Source of the DNA: Deltaproteobacteria bacterium
GTDB lineage: Bacteria; Desulfobacterota; Binatia; UBA1149; JAJCZL01
Direction of reading: 5' to 3'
Assembly (NCBI GenBank): GCA_029262415.1
Contig: JAJCZL010000034.1
Span: 1 to 64,000 of the forward strand
DNA length: 64,000 nucleotides
The translations under genes and the position numbers were made by a program. Below, one piece after another: positions 8,600 through 40,381 of this stretch (positions are counted from its first letter, which is position 1; the number at the start of each line of letters is the position of its first letter). The notes beneath the pieces were generated by a model, which was given only the letters and a program-made list of their open reading frames with translations, did no database searches and was not told the DNA's origin.

Positions 8600-11086
8600 C
8601 TATTTGCGGACTTCGAGCGCTTTGATGTGTAAGTAGGGGAGTAATGCCGGGGCGATCCTCAGCGATAGCTTGGAGATCGCCTCGCCCGGCAAGGCGATCT
8701 CGGCGCGGGGGTTGCCGAAGAAATCGACGGCCCCCTGTACGCGTCCGTGCTTGCCGTCGGCAGTTTTGCTGCGAATGCGGTAGACGAGCGATTCGCGTGA
8801 GTGCGGAAGGTTGAGTTCTATGCGCACGGATCCTCCCTGCAAGGGCGGATCAAACGACGCGCGGCAGGCGACGGAGATCTGCTGCGCCGTCCACCGCGAT
8901 GCCCGGCGCCAGGTTCGTACTCCAGCGGCCGAAACCGTGCGCGCCGCCGGTGTACACGACAGCTTATCACCGATCTCGGCAACGCTTATGCCTGTCGGCT
9001 GCGCCGGCGCAGCCGCCCGTGAGCGTTTCATACCTGCGACCCGCGAGCGCTGCATACGGTCGGCGCAAAGCGTGTAGCGTTTGTTGCGGAAGACTTCGAT
9101 GCCCTTACGGTCGCAGCCTTCGCCCGCCCACAAAGTGTGCGTCGCATAAACGTGTGCCCCGTGCTGGCTGCGCATGCCGAGGCTTCCACCGCGCAACCCT
9201 AGGACTGCAGCCTGTGATCGCATACGGGCTTCGGCACCTCTCCAGGAGCCGACAAACACCGTCGTCCCACGATCGGCAATCGCCGCGACGCGTCTCCCCG
9301 TGTATGCCGGGATGATCTCCGACATCGCCGCACCGGTCATGACCAGCGACCACGACGGCAGTGACGAGACCGCGGCAAGCATCTCGCGGGTTTCTTGGTC
9401 TAGGGGCAACACGGTATTGATGGCGACCAGTGAGTCCCGGTCAAGCCGCGTCCAATCTACATTGCGCGCCGAAACCAGCGCGAGCGTAACCGCGAGCGCG
9501 ATGATTGCGCCACGTGCCATGACCGGGGTGCGGTCATGCGCCGACTCTCTTGAGAAGAAGGCGGGGCCGTCCATGAATACTACCGCGAGCATGAACCCCA
9601 TCGGCATGCCCCATAGCGCGCGGTAGACCATCCACGGCAGCACGAACCCGCCGTAAGCGGGCGCGATGAAAGGAACGAACGAAACAACCAGCGCCGGCAC
9701 TGCGCAGGCAAGCACGAACCCGCCCCAAAGCGTGCGCCTGTGAAGGTATGCGAGTCCGAGTCCCAGCAGTGCGGTCAGGAGCAGAGGGTCGGCGAGCAGG
9801 CCGGGGTTTACGATCGGGCCGCCGGGTTCGAAATCGATCAAGCGGTCCATACGAATGTGGCTGCGTACCACCGGATGATCAGGGAACTCCCGAAGCAGAC
9901 GGATCGGGTCGATCGCCATAAACGAGCGTGTCGCCGCCTTCATGCCGAACCAGCCTGCAGGGGCTGCGGCTGCGCCAAGCGCGACACCGGCGAGCGCGAG
10001 CCTGGTAGGACGCGCACCGCCGCCGCAAATCATCTGCCAGGCGATCAAGCCGGCCGCGCAAATCAGTAGAGTCAGATATACCAGCGCGTGCGAAAGACCG
10101 AGCCCCATCAATGCGAGGCCGAACGCGGCGGGAAACAGCACGGCCGCACGGCGTCGGGTGCGCAGGTAGTCGATCAGCATCGACAGGCAGATCGGGAACA
10201 GAATCAGGTATGCGATGAACTTGTCTTCACCGACTCTGTTGAAGAACGCGTAGTCTACGGGTGAGAAGAACGGGAAGCGCGTGGCGAGCAATATTGAGAC
10301 CGTTCCGAGTACACCACCGAGTGCGCGCTCGGGCCTGACGAATACGCTGCGCGCCAAGCCGAGCCACGCGAAGACCACCAGAGGAGTCAACAGCACCGGT
10401 AGTACACGCTCGAAGAAAAAGATGCCCGGCAGGGTCGCGATGCTCTTCCACGCAGCCAGTGTGAAAATCCATGCGTTGGCCACGAAACGAAACGGCCAGT
10501 GGGGTGTCCCAAAAAACGGCTCGCTCCAGGTCACCGTAGGCTCCAGTGGAATCCGCGTAACGTAGGCGAGATACCACATTCGGTCGCGTGCGATATTCTC
10601 TCCGCCGGCGGCCATTACCACTAAAAGCAGCGTCAGGGCGGCCAGGACCAGCCCCGTCCAGCGCGGCCAGCGAGTGACTGCCAGGTGCGGACGTGCGCGG
10701 CGGTTTTCGAGCGCGGTCGCATCGAGCGCGGGGGTGCCGATCCCGTAGGGGAGAAAAGCGACCGCGGTACCCAGCGCGACCACTGCCACGAGCACGTCGC
10801 CGAGCGAGCCCTGGGCAAGGTTGGCGATCAGCCCGAACAAGCCGAGGATTCCGATCGAGATCGCGAACGAGCGCGGCAGAGTCTCGAGCGGATGGGCACC
10901 GAGGAACTTTCGCATACCTGCGGCGCGGTCGAGCAGGTATCCGGGCAGAATGGCGATCCCGAAAAACGCAGGTACGCCGACCGCCCAGGTTCCCGCGATG
11001 GTTCCGAGCACAGGAATCAGCTGGCCTGCAGTCAGGGCGTAGCCCCAAGAGGCGTAGAACAATATTCCGGGAAGCAGGCGAACCAC
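8600..11086 (-). CDS. Large multi-spanning membrane protein, paralogue of its upstream neighbour
   Basis: An 828-residue protein with many hydrophobic segments in the first 520 residues (for example WTGLVLAALTLLLVVMAAGG and ALTLALVSA), then a soluble part with about 300 residues. The loop DRMWYLAYVTRIPLEPTVTWSEPFFGTP, near residues 170-195, matches the loop of the adjacent gene, as does the C-terminal end (LRIAPALLPYLHIKALEV). The layout of a long luminal loop after paired helices and a large periplasmic C-terminal domain recalls GT-C type membrane glycosyltransferases, but no catalytic signature was confirmed. It starts with GTG at 11086, two bases after the neighbour's stop, so the pair forms one transcript. 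Function is unknown; an envelope glycan role is inferred from the glycosyltransferase next door. Confidence 0.75.
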   Translation of the reverse strand: MVRLLPGILFYASWGYALTAGQLIPVLGTIAGTWAVGVPAFFGIAILPGYLLDRAAGMRKFLGAHPLETLPRSFAISIGILGLFGLIANLAQGSLGDVLVAVVALGTAVAFLPYGIGTPALDATALENRRARPHLAVTRWPRWTGLVLAALTLLLVVMAAGGENIARDRMWYLAYVTRIPLEPTVTWSEPFFGTPHWPFRFVANAWIFTLAAWKSIATLPGIFFFERVLPVLLTPLVVFAWLGLARSVFVRPERALGGVLGTVSILLATRFPFFSPVDYAFFNRVGEDKFIAYLILFPICLSMLIDYLRTRRRAAVLFPAAFGLALMGLGLSHALVYLTLLICAAGLIAWQMICGGGARPTRLALAGVALGAAAAPAGWFGMKAATRSFMAIDPIRLLREFPDHPVVRSHIRMDRLIDFEPGGPIVNPGLLADPLLLTALLGLGLAYLHRRTLWGGFVLACAVPALVVSFVPFIAPAYGGFVLPWMVYRALWGMPMGFMLAVVFMDGPAFFSRESAHDRTPVMARGAIIALAVTLALVSARNVDWTRLDRDSLVAINTVLPLDQETREMLAAVSSLPSWSLVMTGAAMSEIIPAYTGRRVAAIADRGTTVFVGSWRGAEARMRSQAAVLGLRGGSLGMRSQHGAHVYATHTLWAGEGCDRKGIEVFRNKRYTLCADRMQRSRVAGMKRSRAAAPAQPTGISVAEIGDKLSCTPAARTVSAAGVRTWRRASRWTAQQISVACRASFDPPLQGGSVRIELNLPHSRESLVYRIRSKTADGKHGRVQGAVDFFGNPRAEIALPGEAISKLSLRIAPALLPYLHIKALEVRK

Positions 11087-11088
11087 GT

Positions 11089-13596
11089 TCAGTCAGACGG
11101 CGGGCTTACGGCGGGTACCGCAGTCAACGCGAGCTTTCGTAGTTTCACGAACGGAAGGAAATTCGGAACGATGTTCAGGAACAGCTCATCGACGGGAGTT
11201 GCGGGCAAGGCCAACTCAGCAGTCTCGAGGTGGCGAAGGCGCAGCTGTGACGCGGCTCGCCACGCGGGGCGGCCGCCCAGGCGTGCGGTCACTACCACCG
11301 TGTATTCTTCGACGGCGTATCCAAGGATTGGTTCGATACGTAGCCGTGTGGGCACGAACGCTTTGCCGTTTCTTTGCGGATCGCGGACGCGAATCGCGCA
11401 GAGACCATGGGGGTGGCGCGGCGACCACGGCCCCGGCCGCTCCCAATGGTGAAACAGCGCATCAGGGTCGAGGGCGGGTGTGCAGCCCGCCGAGAGTAGC
11501 GCGGCGTCGTCCGCAAGCATCGCGTGCAGGGTCAGTTCGTCGTCGTTGCCGTCGCCGCCGGCGTTCTGCCGGCCGGGCCGCAGCCCACGGCGTGTGCTTT
11601 CGGCGTCTTGGTCTGCAGCAGCATCGATCCGCGGCAGGCGGTCGATCTCTGCTGGGGGGCGAGCTGCGAACTCGCACAGCTCGAAGTTTGCGACGCGATA
11701 CAAGTGTCTACCGCAATAGCCGGAGGCGCTGGTTCCCGGCTCGACAAGAATATGCGTGGGCGCGGGTATCCCCGGCACAGGCCGCCAGAGGCCGGCCATC
11801 AGCGAGGCCCGCATGCGCAACCGTTCTTCACCCCTTGCGCGGTCGCCGGAGAAAACCACGCTGGCCCGGTCGGAGGCCGCGAGCACCCGTTGCCCGGTCA
11901 GCGCCGGAATCCGCTCGCTGAGTTCGGGAGCCGCCGCGATGATCGACCCGCGCGGGAGTTCAGCGACGACTTTCATCACGTCGCGGAACGGGCCGCTTGC
12001 GGGTGTTGCCAACTCGAGGCGTTCCATCGCAGGAGCGCCGCCGAGCGCTGCGACCGTCCAAGGCATCGCGGCCATCACGAACAGAGCAACCGGGATCCAC
12101 CGGTAGCGCCCGGCGAGCTTACACGCCTCGTCTAAACCGATCGCGAGCAGCGCGGCGAACGGTATCGCCCACAACAACCGGTAGACCATCCACGGCAGCA
12201 CGATCGCGCCCATCGCGGTCGCTAGTGGAGGAACGAACGCGAGTGCGAGTGGTAGCAGTGTTGTGGGGATGACGTACGCGCGTTCCTTGCGGCTGCGCAG
12301 CGCGACCAGAGGCATGCAAGCCAAAGCCAAGAGCGTAAGCGGATGGGCCAGAAGTGCCGGTTTGACCATGAAATACCCGCTGTCGAACTCGATCAGTCGC
12401 GCGCGGGCATGGTGCACGCGCGCCACCGGGTGATCGAGCATCGGGAATGTGGCGCCGTCGGCGCGCAGCTCGCTACGCGCGTCGTTGCCGTCGATAATCG
12501 GTAGCAGCGAACCGACGACGAAGAACAGCGCGAGCAAAGCCACTCGAATGTTGACGGCGGAACCCGTCGCTGCGAGCCAGACCGCTGCGGGGATAACCGC
12601 AAGGCCGACGATCATGAACACCAGCGGGTGTACGCTCGACTGTGCGATCAAAGCTGCGGCAGCCATCCACAACCAACGTGCGTAGGGATCGCCCGCGGTG
12701 ATCGCGCGCAGCGCCGCTCCGATCGTGACCGGCCCAACGATCAGGATGGCGAGGATCTTGTCTTCAGGGATCCGCGTCAGAATCGGGAAAAGCGAGCCGC
12801 TGACCCACAGCAGCGAGGCGGCTAGACACATCAGCCACGCGGTCCGTCCGCGTCCGAATAGCGAATGGCCGAGGAACAGCGCTGCGGAATACGCGCATGG
12901 GACAAGTACGACGGGTGCAACGCGTTCGTAAAGAAGGATCGGGTCTATTCCTGCCGAGCGGGCCCACACCGCCATCGAGGTGATCCAGCCGTTGAAGCCG
13001 AAGCGTCCGAGCGTAACCGAACCGTCGAAAAAAGGTTCGCTGAAATCGAGTGCCGCCGCGTCGATGAACTTACGCATGTAGGCGAGGTACCACCAACGGT
13101 CAACGCTGCCCGTGCGCGTCGTGTCCCACGCCGTCAGCGTGGTCAGCAATACGAGGATGCCGATCAACACGAAAATGAAGGTGCCGGTGCTGTCGGGCTT
13201 CGAGTCTTGCTGTGCATCCTGGTGCCAAGCATCGTCTGCGGTGAGTTCGTCTCGGTCGCGCGCACGAGCCGCGAACAGAGTCAGAACTGCGATCGTGATG
13301 AAGTAGGGTGCTGTAAATGCGCCCAGCGATGCGCCGACGAGAAATGGCAGGGCGTATGCAGGCGTCAGCACGGCGAGCGATGCGACGAAAGCGACCGCCG
13401 GTAGCTCGCCGATGCTGGTGCGTCTGGCGAGGTGTGTCGACTGCAGAAACAGCAGGCCCGGTGCGGCGAACAGCGCGTAGACAAGTGCAAACGCTTGCGG
13501 CGTACCGCCAAGAGCGCCACCGGATCGTAGCGAGACAACCAGGCAAGCGATCGCCGACAGCGCGATCGCGGCCGGCCGGGCAATCGCGTCTCTCAT
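11089..13596 (-). CDS. Large multi-spanning membrane protein, first of a tandem paralogous pair
   Basis: An 835-residue protein with an ATG start at 13596 and the same plan as the next gene: about a dozen hydrophobic segments through residue 530, then a soluble C-terminal part. Shared landmarks include DRWWYLAYMRKFIDAAALDFSEPFFDGS near residues 166-193, an aromatic NGWITSMAVW segment, a later LARYRWIP-type boundary, and a closing FLNIVPNFLPFVKLRKLAL. The paralogue identity looks moderate, so the duplication is old. The GT-C glycosyltransferase-like layout is suggestive only. It is not recognised as a named family here. Convergent gene context (glycosyltransferase at 7.5 kb) supports a polysaccharide or glycolipid role. 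Confidence 0.75.
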   Translation of the reverse strand: MRDAIARPAAIALSAIACLVVSLRSGGALGGTPQAFALVYALFAAPGLLFLQSTHLARRTSIGELPAVAFVASLAVLTPAYALPFLVGASLGAFTAPYFITIAVLTLFAARARDRDELTADDAWHQDAQQDSKPDSTGTFIFVLIGILVLLTTLTAWDTTRTGSVDRWWYLAYMRKFIDAAALDFSEPFFDGSVTLGRFGFNGWITSMAVWARSAGIDPILLYERVAPVVLVPCAYSAALFLGHSLFGRGRTAWLMCLAASLLWVSGSLFPILTRIPEDKILAILIVGPVTIGAALRAITAGDPYARWLWMAAAALIAQSSVHPLVFMIVGLAVIPAAVWLAATGSAVNIRVALLALFFVVGSLLPIIDGNDARSELRADGATFPMLDHPVARVHHARARLIEFDSGYFMVKPALLAHPLTLLALACMPLVALRSRKERAYVIPTTLLPLALAFVPPLATAMGAIVLPWMVYRLLWAIPFAALLAIGLDEACKLAGRYRWIPVALFVMAAMPWTVAALGGAPAMERLELATPASGPFRDVMKVVAELPRGSIIAAAPELSERIPALTGQRVLAASDRASVVFSGDRARGEERLRMRASLMAGLWRPVPGIPAPTHILVEPGTSASGYCGRHLYRVANFELCEFAARPPAEIDRLPRIDAAADQDAESTRRGLRPGRQNAGGDGNDDELTLHAMLADDAALLSAGCTPALDPDALFHHWERPGPWSPRHPHGLCAIRVRDPQRNGKAFVPTRLRIEPILGYAVEEYTVVVTARLGGRPAWRAASQLRLRHLETAELALPATPVDELFLNIVPNFLPFVKLRKLALTAVPAVSPPSD

Positions 13597-20685: not shown

Positions 20686-21654
20686 ATGGAGTTTGGTGTG
20701 TTTGTTCCGCAAGGATGGCGGCTCGACCTGGCCGGTGTGAATGGGGCGGCGGCGAAGTGGAACACCTTCAGGGACGTAACCGTATCGCTCGACGAGCAGG
20801 GGTGGGAGTCGCTGTGGGTCTACGACCACTTCCACACTTTCCCGCGTAAGAAAGTCGAGGCGACCTTCGAGGCTTGGACGATGATGGCGACGATGGCCGC
20901 GATTACGACGCGGGCCCGTTTGGGCCAGCTCGTCACCTGCGTGCAGTACCGCGAGCCCTCCTATCTGGCCAAGGTCGCCGCTTGTGTCGATGTCGCCAGC
21001 GCCGGACGCTTGAATGTCGGTCTCGGATCGGGATGGTACGAAGAGGAGTTCAGCGCACTCGGGTATGACTTCCGCACGACGCGCGAACGGCTGGCGCGTC
21101 TCGAGGAAGCGCTGGAGATTGTGCGTGCGTTGTGGACTCAGGAGATGACCGACTTCGACGGTAAGCACTATCGCTTGAAGGAAGCGGTGTGTGAGCCCAA
21201 GCCGGTGCAGACGCCCGGTCCGCCGATCTGGATCGGCGGACGCGGCCCCAAGGTCTTACTACGGCTCGTCGCGCAATACGCCGACGTTTGGAACTTCAAC
21301 GGATCGCTCGATGAATTTGCGCCGACGGTCGAGATCTTGAAAGGGCACTGTCGGGATGTCGGTCGCGACTTTGATGAGATTCGTTTGACCGCAATGTCCG
21401 GCGGTATCGCTTACGATAGCGAAGACGAACTCGATGCTTTCTTCGAGCGCATCGCGCCGCAAGAGCTCGATCGTGAGCGTTTGCTCGACTTTGTCAGTTG
21501 CAAGGGCACGCGTGAGCAGTGCGCCGAGAGTATCCGCAAATGGAAAGACGCAGGCTGCGACGGCCTGGTGTTCTTCTTTCAAGACATCGCTTCAGTCGGC
21601 CGCAACGAATCACAGGCGGAAGTGTTTAAGCGGGAGATTCTGACCGAGGTTTGA
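20686..21654 (+). CDS. LLM-class F420-dependent oxidoreductase
   Basis: A 322-residue luciferase-like oxidoreductase with MEFGVFVPQGWRLDLAGV at the N terminus, the ESLWVYDHFHTFP substrate-site loop near residue 45, TTRARLGQLVTCVQYREPSYLAK near residues 77-99, and GRLNVGLGSGWYEEEFSALGYDF near residues 107-129. This arrangement matches the F420-dependent subgroup well. ATG 20686 is preferred over one five codons upstream because it matches the family start and has AAGAG 6 bases before it. It ends 29 bases inside the convergent hemG. The substrate is unknown; members act on lipids, alcohols, or nitro-compounds. Confidence 0.88.
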   Translation: MEFGVFVPQGWRLDLAGVNGAAAKWNTFRDVTVSLDEQGWESLWVYDHFHTFPRKKVEATFEAWTMMATMAAITTRARLGQLVTCVQYREPSYLAKVAACVDVASAGRLNVGLGSGWYEEEFSALGYDFRTTRERLARLEEALEIVRALWTQEMTDFDGKHYRLKEAVCEPKPVQTPGPPIWIGGRGPKVLLRLVAQYADVWNFNGSLDEFAPTVEILKGHCRDVGRDFDEIRLTAMSGGIAYDSEDELDAFFERIAPQELDRERLLDFVSCKGTREQCAESIRKWKDAGCDGLVFFFQDIASVGRNESQAEVFKREILTEV

Positions 21655-23095
21655 GTACGTCGGGGAAGATGAGTTTGCAGATCGCTTCGGCTGCCATCTC
21701 GCCGCTGCGAATGCAGTCGGGGATCCCTACGCCGTCGTAGGCGTTGCCGGCGACGTAGAGGCCCGGCTGTTTCTCGAGCAGCGCTGCGATCTTTGCAACC
21801 CGTTGCAGGTGTCCGACGTCGTATTGCGGCATCGATTCCGGCCAACGAGTAATGATGACCTCGCGTGGGCGCGCGGTGATACCGAGCAGGTCTCTGAGGT
21901 CGGCCATGACCGCGTTGGTCAGATTCGCATCATCAAGCGTCAGTTTGTCCGGGGCGAGTGCGCCGCCGACGAATGCGCGCAGCAGTACGCTTCCGTCCGG
22001 TGCCCGGTGCGCGTACTTGTGGCTGCTATACGTGCAAGCGATGGTCGTCCGGCGCTCGCGTGCCGGTACCACGAACCCGTAGCCCGCCAGTGGTCTGGGA
22101 ACCTCGCTCCGATCTAGAACGATGTTGATCGTGGCCGCCGATGCGTAGCGGATCTCACGGAGTGCTGTGTGGAGGTCACGGTCAACCGGGGCGACGAGGT
22201 CGGCGGTCAGGTATGCCGGTAGTGCCAGGCAGACCGCATCGACGGAAAGTTCAATGTCATTGGTTCGCACCTGCCATCCCGACGGTGTCGCAACCAGCGC
22301 AGAGACGCAGGTGTTTTTTTTGAGGACTCCGGGGGGCAAGAGTTCTTCGAGTCGTTTCGGCAGCTCCTCGATACCGTCACGAAAGGCGAAGAACAGGTTG
22401 TGGCGTGGCCCGGTGGCCGACGCATTGTCGTCGTCGCCTTGGGCTCGTCGTCGCAGCATGGCCGCGGTGACGCTCCCGTGCTTGCGCTCCATCTCGACGA
22501 ACCGCGCCATCGTAGCGTCCATGCTCAGGCGTTCAGGGTCGGCGGTATAGATGCCCCCTGCCAGTGGTTGTGCGAGGTTGTGTAGTACCTCGTCGCCGAA
22601 CCTCCTGCGGACGAAGGACGCGAGCGATTCATCGGTGACATTCCTGCGGCGGCGGATGAAAGGCTCGCACAGCATGCGCAACTTGCCGCCGGTACTCAAC
22701 AGTGGTGAGCGCAGCATAGGTAGGATGCGTGAGGGAGCAAAGAGATTGAGTCCTTTCGGGATCGGTACAAGTCGGTCTCCCTTCGCTATCGATGTCCCCC
22801 GATTGGCTGGCTCGGTTGAGATGAGGCGTGGTTCGAGTCCGATTTCTTCGCAGAACGCGCGCCCGCGCGGCTTCTCGGCGAGGATCGAATCCGGGCCGAA
22901 TTCGCAAGTGCAACCACCGGCACTTTCGCTACGGATCACACCGCCGGCGCGGGTGTCGGATTCGAGCAGATGTAGCACGACGCGGCGCTGGTGGGCCTGG
23001 GCAATCCGATTCAGGTGATGTGCTGACGCGAGCCCGCTGATGCCCGCTCCTATGATGGCGACGGTCGGCACCTTCGTGGCCGCGGGTTCGTTCAT
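21626..23095 (-). CDS. hemG: Protoporphyrinogen/coproporphyrinogen III oxidase HemG/HemY type
   Basis: A 489-residue FAD-dependent oxidase of the HemY class that oxidises protoporphyrinogen IX or coproporphyrinogen III to the porphyrin. It has the dinucleotide-binding VAIIGAGISGLASAHHLN at residues 12-29, the FGPDSILAEKP segment that follows it, the FAFRDGIEELPKRLE stretch near 250, and the terminal FAD motif GLYVAGNAYDGVGIPDCIRSGEMAAE near residues 450-475. The naming as hemG or hemY is a matter of convention; the Gram-positive type (hemY/pgoX) fits the protein best. Its ATG overlaps the hemH stop by 4 bases as ATGA, so it is translationally coupled, and it is the last gene of the hemDE-hemH-hemG run. 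Confidence 0.92.
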   Translation of the reverse strand: MNEPAATKVPTVAIIGAGISGLASAHHLNRIAQAHQRRVVLHLLESDTRAGGVIRSESAGGCTCEFGPDSILAEKPRGRAFCEEIGLEPRLISTEPANRGTSIAKGDRLVPIPKGLNLFAPSRILPMLRSPLLSTGGKLRMLCEPFIRRRRNVTDESLASFVRRRFGDEVLHNLAQPLAGGIYTADPERLSMDATMARFVEMERKHGSVTAAMLRRRAQGDDDNASATGPRHNLFFAFRDGIEELPKRLEELLPPGVLKKNTCVSALVATPSGWQVRTNDIELSVDAVCLALPAYLTADLVAPVDRDLHTALREIRYASAATINIVLDRSEVPRPLAGYGFVVPARERRTTIACTYSSHKYAHRAPDGSVLLRAFVGGALAPDKLTLDDANLTNAVMADLRDLLGITARPREVIITRWPESMPQYDVGHLQRVAKIAALLEKQPGLYVAGNAYDGVGIPDCIRSGEMAAEAICKLIFPDVLKPRSESPA

Positions 23096-24063
23096 GCCGC
23101 GTCGGTCCGGCTCCCGAGCGGCAGTTTGCGTGCCTCGGCGATTCGGTCGGCGATCAATGCGATGAATCTGGGGTGGTCGCCTACGGTTTTCGGCCGCAGC
23201 AGCCGCGCATTGCCGCGGGCTGCTGCTTGCGCTCCCTCGATGTCGATGCCGTAGAGGACCTCGATGTGGTCGTTGATGAAACCGACCGGCGTGACGACAA
23301 CGGTTTTCGCGCCTGCCGTGGTCGCGTCGGCAATCGCCGCCTCCACGCTCGGACCCAGCTGAGCAGGGCTTCGCGGGTCGTCCGAGGGATTGCTGTCGAT
23401 GTATGCGAACATCGGCTTGTCGATGCCGAGTTCGCAGGCGACGGCGCGAACCGTGGTCTCGACTTGGCGAACGTATCCGGTCGCGGTTCCGGGCAGGGCG
23501 GCGACACTCCGCGACACAAATATCCACGCCGCTTCGCTCCGCTGCTGTTCATTGAGACTTATCGTCTCAACGCTGATACGTTCAACCAACGCGTGGACGA
23601 ACTCGGGGGCGTCGTGCCACCCACGTATGTACTCGACCACCGGAGCGCTGAGTCCGGCGTGGCGGGCAGCGACTTCAACGAGATTGCGGCCGGGTTGCGC
23701 CGCAGCGACGTCGTCGAACGGGTCGAGCATCACCGTCACGGCGCGCCCAACCCCATCGGCGGTCAACATTCCAAAGACCTGCGGGAGGTACGGCGTCCAA
23801 TCACGCATGCCGACGTAGATGGGCGTCTGATCTGCGTTGCGGCCGACGAGCTCCTGTTCAAGCGCTTTGGCTTGGAGCCTTACCGAACTGTTGTAGGGCG
23901 AACCCCCGATGGTTTGGTAACGGGCGTACTCCTCGTCGAGCCTATCCGGGTGAACGTTTGCCCCACGATAGCGGTTCTCCAGGAATGGGCGTACGTCACC
24001 GAGGCGTCCGGGAGCCCCGGAGCCGACCAGCAAGACGGCGGTGTCTTCAAGTGTTGATCGCAT
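23092..24063 (-). CDS. hemH: Ferrochelatase family protein lacking the usual catalytic histidine
   Basis: A 323-residue HemH/CpfC-like protein. It has the N-terminal TAVLLVGSGAPGRLGDVRPF, the IGGSPYNSS motif (usually IGGxSPLN), the IYVGMRDWTPYL strand, and near the C terminus VTPVGFINDHIEVLYGID, which keeps the conserved catalytic glutamate. The other catalytic site is changed: the family's SAHSLP-type loop with its invariant histidine is represented by FVSRSVAALP near residue 205, with no histidine. The LAPHxS region is also replaced (LDPFDD). Gene order (hemDE, hemH, hemG) supports a heme role, but activity is uncertain. ATG 24063 is used; a TTG at 24102 is possible. It ends with a 4-base overlap into hemG. 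Confidence 0.82.
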   Translation of the reverse strand: MRSTLEDTAVLLVGSGAPGRLGDVRPFLENRYRGANVHPDRLDEEYARYQTIGGSPYNSSVRLQAKALEQELVGRNADQTPIYVGMRDWTPYLPQVFGMLTADGVGRAVTVMLDPFDDVAAAQPGRNLVEVAARHAGLSAPVVEYIRGWHDAPEFVHALVERISVETISLNEQQRSEAAWIFVSRSVAALPGTATGYVRQVETTVRAVACELGIDKPMFAYIDSNPSDDPRSPAQLGPSVEAAIADATTAGAKTVVVTPVGFINDHIEVLYGIDIEGAQAAARGNARLLRPKTVGDHPRFIALIADRIAEARKLPLGSRTDAA

Positions 24064-24119
24064 TTCAGCTACCACGATGCCCGTGCACGACGTGCGCCGC
24101 AATGCATCTGCGCACGGTC

Positions 24120-26072
24120 TCAGTTCGCGCTCAGTTCGTGGACCGCGTCGACCAACGCGATCACACTATCGACCGGGGTCGCGGGCAAGATCCCGTGGCC
24201 CAGGTTGAAGATATGGCCCGGCCTACCGGCCGCCGACGCAAGCACGCGGGCCGTGGCGTCAACGATCGCAGGGGGGGAGGAGAACAGCACGACGGGATCG
24301 AGGTTGCCCTGGAGTGCGATCCCGGGGTAGCGGTCAAAAGCGGCGTCCAAATCGACACGATGGTCGGCGCCGAGCACCGCGGTCCCACACGACGCCTGCA
24401 TGTCGAGCAGTGTCGGGCATCCGGTCCCGAAGTGGATTACCGGCACGCCGGGCGTCAGCGCGTCGATGACCGCCTTGGTGTGGGGAAGAACGAACCTGCG
24501 GTAGTCATCGGGAGAGAGGCAACCCACCCAGCTGTCGAAAATCTGCAACGCCTGAGCGCCCGCCTCGGCCTGCATGTTGAGGTAGCGTGCGACTGAGCGG
24601 GAGATCGTTTCCATCATCGCGTGCCAGGCGCCGGGATCACGCCACATCAGCGATTTCGTCTGGACGTAATTCTTCGAACCGCCACCCTCGACGATGTAAG
24701 AAGCGAGCGTGAAGGGAGCTCCTGAGAATCCGATCAATGGAATATCGGCCGCGAGTTCGCGGCGTGTCGTACGGATGGCGTCGGCGACGAATGCGAGTGA
24801 CTCGAATGGGTCAACTTCGCGCAGTCGCTCTACATCGGCACCCTCACGGACTGTCTGCGTGATGCTGGGGCCTTCTCCGCCGACGTATCTGAGTCCGAGT
24901 CCCATCGGCTCGACGATTAAGAGGATGTCGGAGAACAAGATCGCCGCGTCCGCACCGATCCGGCGCTGCGCCGTAACCGCGACCTCGGCGGCCAGTTCGG
25001 GCCGCTTGCACAGTTCGATGAACGGGATCCGTGCGCGAACCTCGCGGTATTCCTGCATGTAACGGCCGGCCTGGCGCATTAGCCACACCGGTGTGTACGG
25101 CACCGGCTTACGTCGGCACGCGAGCATGAACGGGCTGTCGTCGAGCGTATTCAAACCCTCCTCGCCGGGCGCTTGTGCGGAGGACGCCGTTTGCTCTACT
25201 ACCGCGGCACGCCGGCGTAGATGTTCGCGCTTACCATCTACGAGGTCTGCGGCCTTTGCCGCGACTTCCTTAACAAAGCCGCCGAGCTTCGACCGCGCCG
25301 GTTCAAAATCCGGGGGCAGGCCGAGCTCGGCGAGACTTTCGCTGGAAACCGGCCCGATCGAACAGATCGCGAGTTCGCGCAACGCGTGTCGCAGTTGTTC
25401 TTCACAGCCGTCTTGCGCCGCGGCGGCCAGCAGGTGGCGCACCTGTGTAGCGCTGGTCACCAACAGGAGGTCGGCGGTTCGCGCGAGGATCTCCGCGATT
25501 GCGTCGCGTAGCGGCTTGGTGTCTGCGGGTAGCGCCCACTTATACACCGGCACCGTGCGGACCTTGGCGCCGCGTTCGCGCAGCGCTTGCTCGAGACGGG
25601 TATTTGCTACGCCGTATTCCTGCAACGCGACCGAGGCACCGTCGAGCGGGCGACCATTAGCGGACTTTTCGATCGCAGCGATGATCTCGCGCCAGGTGTT
25701 GGGTTCGGGGACGGTTACTGCGATCGGAACGCCGAACCCACGCAGAGCCACCGCAGATTTGGGTCCGCGCGCGACCACGCAGGTTGCGCTGATCGCCGCG
25801 ACGAGATCGTCAAGCGGGGTTTGAGTCTCCATCGCGGCGAAGAGGTGGCGGGTGCCGACACCTGTCATGCAGATGACAATGTCGTATGTGCCGGAGGTGA
25901 GTTCCTCGGCGAACGCGAAGGCTTCGTGGTTCTCCGCGAGCGGGATTTCGCGCATCGACGGCGCCTGGATCGCGACGCCTCCGGCTTTACGGATCAGCGC
26001 GGCCGATTCCTCGGCCATTCGGCTCTCCAGCGAAACGACCCGCAGGCCGCCGAATCCGCGTGTGCTTCTCAT
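24120..26072 (-). CDS. hemDE: Fused uroporphyrinogen-III synthase and uroporphyrinogen decarboxylase (HemD-HemE)
   Basis: A 650-residue bifunctional heme-pathway protein. Residues about 1-280 are a HemD domain, with the two-lobed fold marks (LESRMAEESAALIRKAGG, YDIVICMTGVGTRHLF and the later LLVTSATQVRHLL). A charged linker of about 30 residues is followed by a complete HemE from about residue 313, beginning PFMLACRRKP and carrying the uroporphyrinogen decarboxylase signature VWLMRQAGRYMQEYR, and GFSGAPFTLASYIVEGG and GHGILPATPV later. It would close hydroxymethylbilane to uroporphyrinogen III and decarboxylate it to coproporphyrinogen III. It is the first gene of the hemDE-hemH-hemG transcript. 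The ATG at 26072 is preceded by AAGGGAAA. Confidence 0.94.
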   Translation of the reverse strand: MRSTRGFGGLRVVSLESRMAEESAALIRKAGGVAIQAPSMREIPLAENHEAFAFAEELTSGTYDIVICMTGVGTRHLFAAMETQTPLDDLVAAISATCVVARGPKSAVALRGFGVPIAVTVPEPNTWREIIAAIEKSANGRPLDGASVALQEYGVANTRLEQALRERGAKVRTVPVYKWALPADTKPLRDAIAEILARTADLLLVTSATQVRHLLAAAAQDGCEEQLRHALRELAICSIGPVSSESLAELGLPPDFEPARSKLGGFVKEVAAKAADLVDGKREHLRRRAAVVEQTASSAQAPGEEGLNTLDDSPFMLACRRKPVPYTPVWLMRQAGRYMQEYREVRARIPFIELCKRPELAAEVAVTAQRRIGADAAILFSDILLIVEPMGLGLRYVGGEGPSITQTVREGADVERLREVDPFESLAFVADAIRTTRRELAADIPLIGFSGAPFTLASYIVEGGGSKNYVQTKSLMWRDPGAWHAMMETISRSVARYLNMQAEAGAQALQIFDSWVGCLSPDDYRRFVLPHTKAVIDALTPGVPVIHFGTGCPTLLDMQASCGTAVLGADHRVDLDAAFDRYPGIALQGNLDPVVLFSSPPAIVDATARVLASAAGRPGHIFNLGHGILPATPVDSVIALVDAVHELSAN

Positions 26073-38896: not shown

Positions 38897-40381
38897 ATGC
38901 TCGAAGCGAAACAACCATCAGGCGGCGGCAGCGCCGCTGCAACGGAACCCGGCCACCACGCCGCAGCCCCCGTGGACTTCCAGCAGTTCTGGAAAAACGC
39001 GTGGCGTCCATCGCATGATGTGGGCAGCTACCGTATGACCCGCGTCGAGGGCGAGATCCCGCGTGAATTGCACGGCACGCTGTACCGCAACGGTCCTTCG
39101 CAGAACATCAAGCCGACAGAGGGCTTTGCGGCGATGCATCTATTCGAGGGCGACGCCCTCATTCACGCCTTCCGCTTCGACGACGGCCGCGTCGACTACA
39201 CCGGCCGTTTTGTCGAGAACCCTACCCATCTGGCCGAAAAACGTCTCGGCCGTGTCATCGGAGGACTCGGCGAGTCGAACCACGAACCCGACGATCTCGG
39301 TGAGGTCGTCATGCGCCAGCAGCCCAACACCAACGTCGTCTACCACGGCGGAAAACTGCTGGCACTGGTCGAGAACGCATGGCCGTTTGAGATCGACGCA
39401 CGCGACCTCTCGCCCATCGGTACCAACGATTTTCAGGGCAGGATGCTCGGCATGTCGACGACCGCGCACCCCAAGATCGATCGTAAGACCGGGCAGATGA
39501 TCATCCACGGGTATCAGCCGTTTGAGCCCTACGCCCAGTACTACGAGCTGGATGCCGACGGCATCTGCACGGTGGCCGAGCCGCTCGATTTTCCCTACGT
39601 AGGTATGTGCCACGACATGGCGATCACTGAGAATTACGCGATCATCCCGCTCGGCGCGATTACGCTTCACGGTGAAAAACTCATGAGCGGTGAGGCCACA
39701 GTCGATGAGTGCCTGCGCTGGGAACCCGACAAGGGTATTCGGTTCGCGCTGCGTCCGCGCGGGGCGGGTGGCGATATCCGCTGGTTTCAGGCGCCGGCTG
39801 GATACATGTTCCACCCCGGTAACGCCTATGAGGAAGACGGCAAGATTTTCATGGACGCCTGCGTGTACGAAGACGGCGGCCAATTGATCGAGGGGCTGCG
39901 GCTGTTCCGCCAAGGTAGGGGAGTCGGGTTGCGCGCGGTGCCCTATCTCTATGAGTTCGACCTCACTACCGGTGAATGTAAAGCGACCAAGCTCGACGAC
40001 CGCGGTGCCGAGTTCCCGCGGTTGGATGACCGTTTGGTCGGCTACAAGAACCGCTTCGGTTATGCCTGGCGCCAGGACTATGCGGCCGATGCCCCTAAGA
40101 TTTACGAGATAATGAAGTACGACCGCCAGGGTGGGCTTTCAACAGCACACGACTTCGGCGCCTGGCAGTGGCCCGGCGAGGCGGTGTTTGTCCCGCGCAC
40201 GCCCACTTCGGACGAAGACGACGGGTTTCTCCTTTGTACGGTCTACGATGGCACCACCGACGGCAGCTACCTAGCTGTGTTGGACGCACGCAACATGGCC
40301 GACGAGCCGCTCGCCAAGGTTCATCTCGAGCACCGTATTCCGCTCGGCTTTCACGGAAACTTTGCAGGCGCGGTCGTCTAG
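38897..40381 (+). CDS. Carotenoid oxygenase family protein
   Basis: A 494-residue non-heme iron dioxygenase of the carotenoid cleavage family. The four iron-binding histidines are recognisable at His191 (TTAHPKID), His239 (MCHDMAITE), His306 (YMFHPGNAYEE) and His486 (GFHGNF). Glutamates that fix the histidines (AITE, NAYEEDG) are also present. The N-terminal ELHGTLYRNGPSQ and FEGDALIHAF strands match the start of the seven-bladed propeller. The substrate may be a carotenoid, apocarotenoid or a lignin-like stilbene. ATG 38897 is preceded by GGAGG. The TetR gene is directly upstream on the same strand, so coregulation is likely. Confidence 0.93.
   Translation: MLEAKQPSGGGSAAATEPGHHAAAPVDFQQFWKNAWRPSHDVGSYRMTRVEGEIPRELHGTLYRNGPSQNIKPTEGFAAMHLFEGDALIHAFRFDDGRVDYTGRFVENPTHLAEKRLGRVIGGLGESNHEPDDLGEVVMRQQPNTNVVYHGGKLLALVENAWPFEIDARDLSPIGTNDFQGRMLGMSTTAHPKIDRKTGQMIIHGYQPFEPYAQYYELDADGICTVAEPLDFPYVGMCHDMAITENYAIIPLGAITLHGEKLMSGEATVDECLRWEPDKGIRFALRPRGAGGDIRWFQAPAGYMFHPGNAYEEDGKIFMDACVYEDGGQLIEGLRLFRQGRGVGLRAVPYLYEFDLTTGECKATKLDDRGAEFPRLDDRLVGYKNRFGYAWRQDYAADAPKIYEIMKYDRQGGLSTAHDFGAWQWPGEAVFVPRTPTSDEDDGFLLCTVYDGTTDGSYLAVLDARNMADEPLAKVHLEHRIPLGFHGNFAGAVV

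Follow-up and report, generated by a model that had tools for sequence, protein, structure and literature searches.

In ferrochelatases a histidine abstracts the porphyrin proton, and all variants of human H263 that have been studied are inactive (PMC9133952). One survey removed 14 ferrochelatase sequences without this histidine; of these, 11 were duplicates that accompanied a functional copy (PMC8529089). The heme auxotroph C. elegans carries a pseudoferrochelatase, an animal gene that encodes no functional enzyme (PMC9133952). Pairs of active bacterial ferrochelatases are also known (PMC11988928). We found no literature on heme biosynthesis in Binatota and none on the H182A variant of coproporphyrin ferrochelatase.

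The ferrochelatase homologue studied here, operon HemH, is encoded in the window, a 64,000-nucleotide stretch of DNA from a Binatia genome. It resembles the CpfC/PpfC/HemH enzymes (PF00762) in its full-length homology, predicted fold, operon position and active-site glutamate (B. subtilis E264). Unlike them, it has an arginine for the histidine and has lost the QSRSG loop, the Trp of PWLEPD and the Asp of LYDLD. As with the surveyed duplicates (PMC8529089), a copy without the histidine is found alongside a working one in the same genome; here, however, it is the heme operon that carries that copy, and the two intact ones differ in type, one being coproporphyrin-type and the other protoporphyrin-type. 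The C. elegans protein is likewise a homologue without the catalytic histidine, but the Binatia genome has two intact ferrochelatases. In the laboratory variants H183A and H183C of B. subtilis and H182A of L. monocytogenes (PDB 2h1w, 2ac4, 9f0g), the same position is changed and the fold is kept, whereas operon HemH has Arg rather than Ala or Cys, together with further active-site changes. The case fits an already known pattern of a copy lacking the histidine beside a working one, differing slightly in that the operon copy would be the dead one.

The features of the operon are as follows.

24120 to 26072, minus strand: hemD-hemE fusion (uroporphyrinogen-III synthase + uroporphyrinogen decarboxylase), 650 aa, the first gene of the operon
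23092 to 24063, minus strand: ferrochelatase gene in degenerate form, the hemH/cpfC ortholog belonging to the Binatia heme operon; 323 aa, with Arg185 at the catalytic histidine position
23488 to 23520, minus strand: catalytic-loop segment FVSRSVAALPG (residues 182-192), with the Arg185 codon at 23509-23511
21626 to 23095, minus strand: hemY (oxygen-dependent copro-/protoporphyrinogen oxidase, TIGR00562), its ATG overlapping the hemH stop (ATGA)

The order, hemD-hemE fusion, then hemH, then hemY, agrees with the hemE-hemH-hemY order common to most class members examined. The first-pass annotation had placed the gene between a hemD-hemE fusion and hemG within a complete late heme operon. The hemD-hemE side was correct, but the gene that follows encodes a HemY-type protein (TIGR00562) rather than HemG, and "complete" was too strong for an operon that contains only hemD-hemE, hemH and hemY. 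The hemH frame runs from an ATG at 24063 to a TGA stop; an alternative upstream TTG at 24102 is possible. The source genome is a draft of 3.9 Mb in 83 contigs, 96.8% complete and 0.6% contaminated.

In a profile search, operon HemH matched PF00762 over the whole domain and above the curated cut-off (153.5 bits against 27, 9e-45, residues 8-310), which places it in this family by descent. It did not reach the TIGR00109 equivalog cut-off of 124.6, scoring 101.6 bits, while five intact class members scored 157-205. The family match and the alignment together bore out the earlier description of a ferrochelatase homologue without its catalytic histidine.

When aligned to B. subtilis CpfC, VSRSVA stands opposite the catalytic loop SAHSLP, so the catalytic histidine (B. 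subtilis H183, human H263) corresponds to Arg185. For a class-wide comparison, in which 123 of 148 Binatia genomes had a ferrochelatase match, DNA was fetched and proteins were aligned, giving 139 rows besides operon HemH (more rows than genomes, as some loci overlap). The Arg185 column was His in all 139 other rows. Both alignments confirmed that the SAHSLP-type loop reads FVSRSVAALP. Among loci fetched later, the histidine was present in six, and one fragment does not reach its position. No replacement histidine was found in the catalytic loop of operon HemH.

Several other active-site residues have changed. Gln at the Q224 column and Trp at the W235 column are present in 139/139 other rows and are replaced by Ser and Gln, respectively; D272, D or E elsewhere, is G. 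By contrast with these losses, H266 is kept, and so is the glutamate of NDHIEVLYG, as the first-pass annotation had noted: E268, at the site of human E343 and B. subtilis E264, is Glu in 139/139 other rows. That annotation also took the LAPH-type loop, which does read LDPFDD with LDPF opposite LAPH, as a sign of lost activity. This argument was dropped because the column (F116) varies naturally among intact enzymes (H 65, Q 27, Y 22, F 22, T 2, L 1 across the other rows), and LDPFDD is uninformative.

We looked for relatives with the same change. None was found among the class ferrochelatases and the collection matches. A collection scan with the operon HemH protein alone matched no relative, and one with an alignment of operon HemH and its ortholog in G008, a genome of the same family, matched ten loci, all with the catalytic histidine; one of them (L151) is the G008 contig. 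Among other ferrochelatases, those of Poribacteria (L154-L157, L160) are rich in Cys over a stretch close to the N-terminus (for example GCCQRHDSCPGEAYCF) and read TAHAIP where others read TAHSIP. An Elusimicrobia MAG (L152:4714-7242, plus strand) has ferrochelatase and HemY in one open frame of 843 residues, possibly a HemH-HemY fusion enzyme.

The losses are concentrated around the active site. Operon HemH keeps 60 of the 82 columns at which conservation among relatives reaches 90% or more. In four active-site segments (111-130, 179-192, 218-240 and 271-280), 15 of 27 conserved columns were lost; outside them the figure was 7 of 55 (Fisher p = 0.0001; p = 0.0005 without the first segment, 111-130). 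Because the protein was already known when the segments were picked, these p-values serve as a guide. Of the residues that do not vary in other members of the class, hemH here has lost 16 of 47, hemY 5 of 39 and hemE 6 of 88.

Branch lengths, in changes per site for the source genome and G008, were 1.14 and 0.50 for hemH, 0.71 and 0.41 for hemY, and 0.31 and 0.35 for hemE. The operon hemH branch is thus about twice that of its sister, whereas the hemE branch is not. Simple relative-rate tests pointed in the same direction with a moderate excess that depended on the outgroup (chi2 0.8 to 13.8) and was not significant with every outgroup.

The reading frame of operon hemH is unbroken over 323 codons, without stop or frameshift, and its third-position GC is 0.738 (neighbours, 0.753 and 0.712). 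The probability of an unbroken frame is below 1% if about 200 changes were neutral and 0.16-0.59 if 20-50 were. Long neutral decay is therefore unlikely as judged from the sequence; a recent loss of function is possible. An AlphaFold2 model (11 sequences) predicted a confident ferrochelatase fold (mean pLDDT 86.6), and the best 44 PDB matches to it were all ferrochelatases (TMq 0.80-0.85). The model had a TM of 0.83 to B. subtilis ferrochelatase, and the B. subtilis H183A/H183C and L. monocytogenes H182A variants were among its nearest structures. Confidence in the changed loop residues 181-200 was 81 and 74, compared with 90 and 93 in the intact ortholog.

The hemDE-hemH-hemY operon is shared by G008, whose HemH keeps TAHSIP and is 46% identical to operon HemH. 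The two hemH genes were sisters in the tree (support 99), with their long branches a caution. No second ferrochelatase was found in G008, a draft genome that is 95% complete. On the sequences compared, loss of the histidine is specific to the present lineage, because the G008 operon carries an intact gene.

The source genome has three PF00762 genes (286, 263 and 153 bits), of which the operon copy is the weakest. The genes relevant to the other two copies, on contigs C58 and C26, are listed below.

C58 82608-83522: ferrochelatase, TAHSIP kept, passing the NF000689 cut-off
G000:C26, L015:6031-9886, minus strand: second late-heme cassette hemH-hemN-hemY, with overlapping genes
C26:57244-57864: ChdC-type gene, on the same contig as the second cassette

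In the tree, the C58 copy falls among the single copies of family f2 of the order (up to 60% identity, support 99) and looks like the order's own coproporphyrin-type ferrochelatase. The neighbouring gluQ gave no synteny with relatives, so the descent of this copy is read from the tree. The C26 copy is of the protoporphyrin type and keeps SFHGIP; its nearest relatives are the hemH genes of G006 and G007, which likewise adjoin hemN. The suggestion of a second ferrochelatase elsewhere thus held for two copies with intact motifs, and the genome contains both a copy with an open frame and no catalytic histidine and ferrochelatases that bear it. From its gene content, the genome seems equipped for the two endings that bacteria use in heme synthesis, one dependent on coproporphyrin and the other on protoporphyrin. 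In the same order, three genomes of one genus (G010, G011 and G012; 86-96% complete) have a ChdC-family gene, and ferrochelatase was not detected in them. This gap leaves the iron-insertion step there unaccounted for.

We consider that operon HemH is probably a catalytically dead, redundant enzyme that lost its function in a lineage carrying two other intact ferrochelatases. The earlier remark that it may be inactive gained support from the loss of the invariant histidine and of several other active-site residues, and the loss of the histidine almost certainly makes it inactive. Operon HemH would then be unable to insert iron. Together with ChdC, the C58 copy would serve the coproporphyrin route, and the protoporphyrin route would fall to the C26 copy with HemN and the second HemY. 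We propose that the operon gene could lose catalysis because two other intact ferrochelatases were in the genome. Its frame may be kept open at least partly by the hemY start lying on its stop codon (ATGA): ribosomes would have to reach the hemH stop to restart on hemY, so a premature stop in hemH would reduce the translation of hemY. The same overlap is found in G008, where the gene is intact, and in some but not all other class members, and therefore predates the loss. It could explain, though it does not prove, why the frame was retained, without the product having to play any role. Counting against a dead enzyme are the retained E268 and H266, a largely preserved fold and a frame free of stops and frameshifts.

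These same features could be explained by a new non-catalytic role. A retained pseudoenzyme would fold and might bind copro- or protoporphyrin, whether to carry it, to work as a partner of HemY or to sort porphyrin between the two routes; Arg185 could even pair with Glu268 and close the pocket, which is only an idea. The confident model (pLDDT 86.6, TM 0.83), the 48 of 55 conserved columns kept outside the active-site segments, the 323 codons without a stop and the conserved operon position are in line with such a role. The changed site occurs in no relative, so that no conserved new motif can be demonstrated, and the model is less confident in the changed loop than that of the intact ortholog. 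We regard this explanation as unlikely; any leftover porphyrin binding is speculative, possible but unsupported. A more specific version, a non-catalytic porphyrin-binding partner in a heme operon that steers the HemY product to one of two heme endings, appears more doubtful still.

Alternatively, the gene could be on its way out, with a recent loss, a frame unbroken by chance so far and nothing maintaining it. Three ferrochelatases in one genome, the accelerated branch and the fair odds of frame survival with only 20-50 neutral changes would suit this explanation. We nevertheless think it rather unlikely, because the changes are non-random over the conserved columns, third-position GC is near that of the neighbours, and the frame would hardly have survived some 200 neutral changes. 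It is very improbable that operon HemH still works as a chelatase through a remodelled active site, perhaps with a different metal. The retained Glu268 and His266 speak for this, but the invariant Gln and Trp, the Asp and other loop residues are lost as well, and the reported histidine variants are inactive (PMC9133952). The first-pass suggestions that the protein uses other residues or inserts another metal found no support, as neither a substitute histidine in the loop nor a relative with the same change turned up. A sequencing or assembly error, conceivable in a draft genome of 83 contigs, is hardly credible for many changes over several loops in one open frame of normal codon composition. 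A frameshift artefact was rejected from the DNA: near the R185 codon the minus strand reads ttt gtg tcg cgg agt gtc gcc, with neither CAC nor CAT in any frame, so no shifted frame restores the histidine.

If operon HemH is dead and redundant, as we favour, redundancy was settled differently in the two relatives: the operon copy works in G008, while here the two others were kept and the operon copy was losing its active site. Automated annotation would call the gene a ferrochelatase and place iron insertion in the operon, which is probably wrong here.

Elsewhere in the window, two adjacent genes (8600-11086 and 11089-13596, minus strand) encode large proteins of 828 and 835 aa, each with a weak DUF6077 match, possibly a tandem duplication. 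An RPE65-family (carotenoid oxygenase-like) protein is encoded at 38897-40381 on the plus strand.
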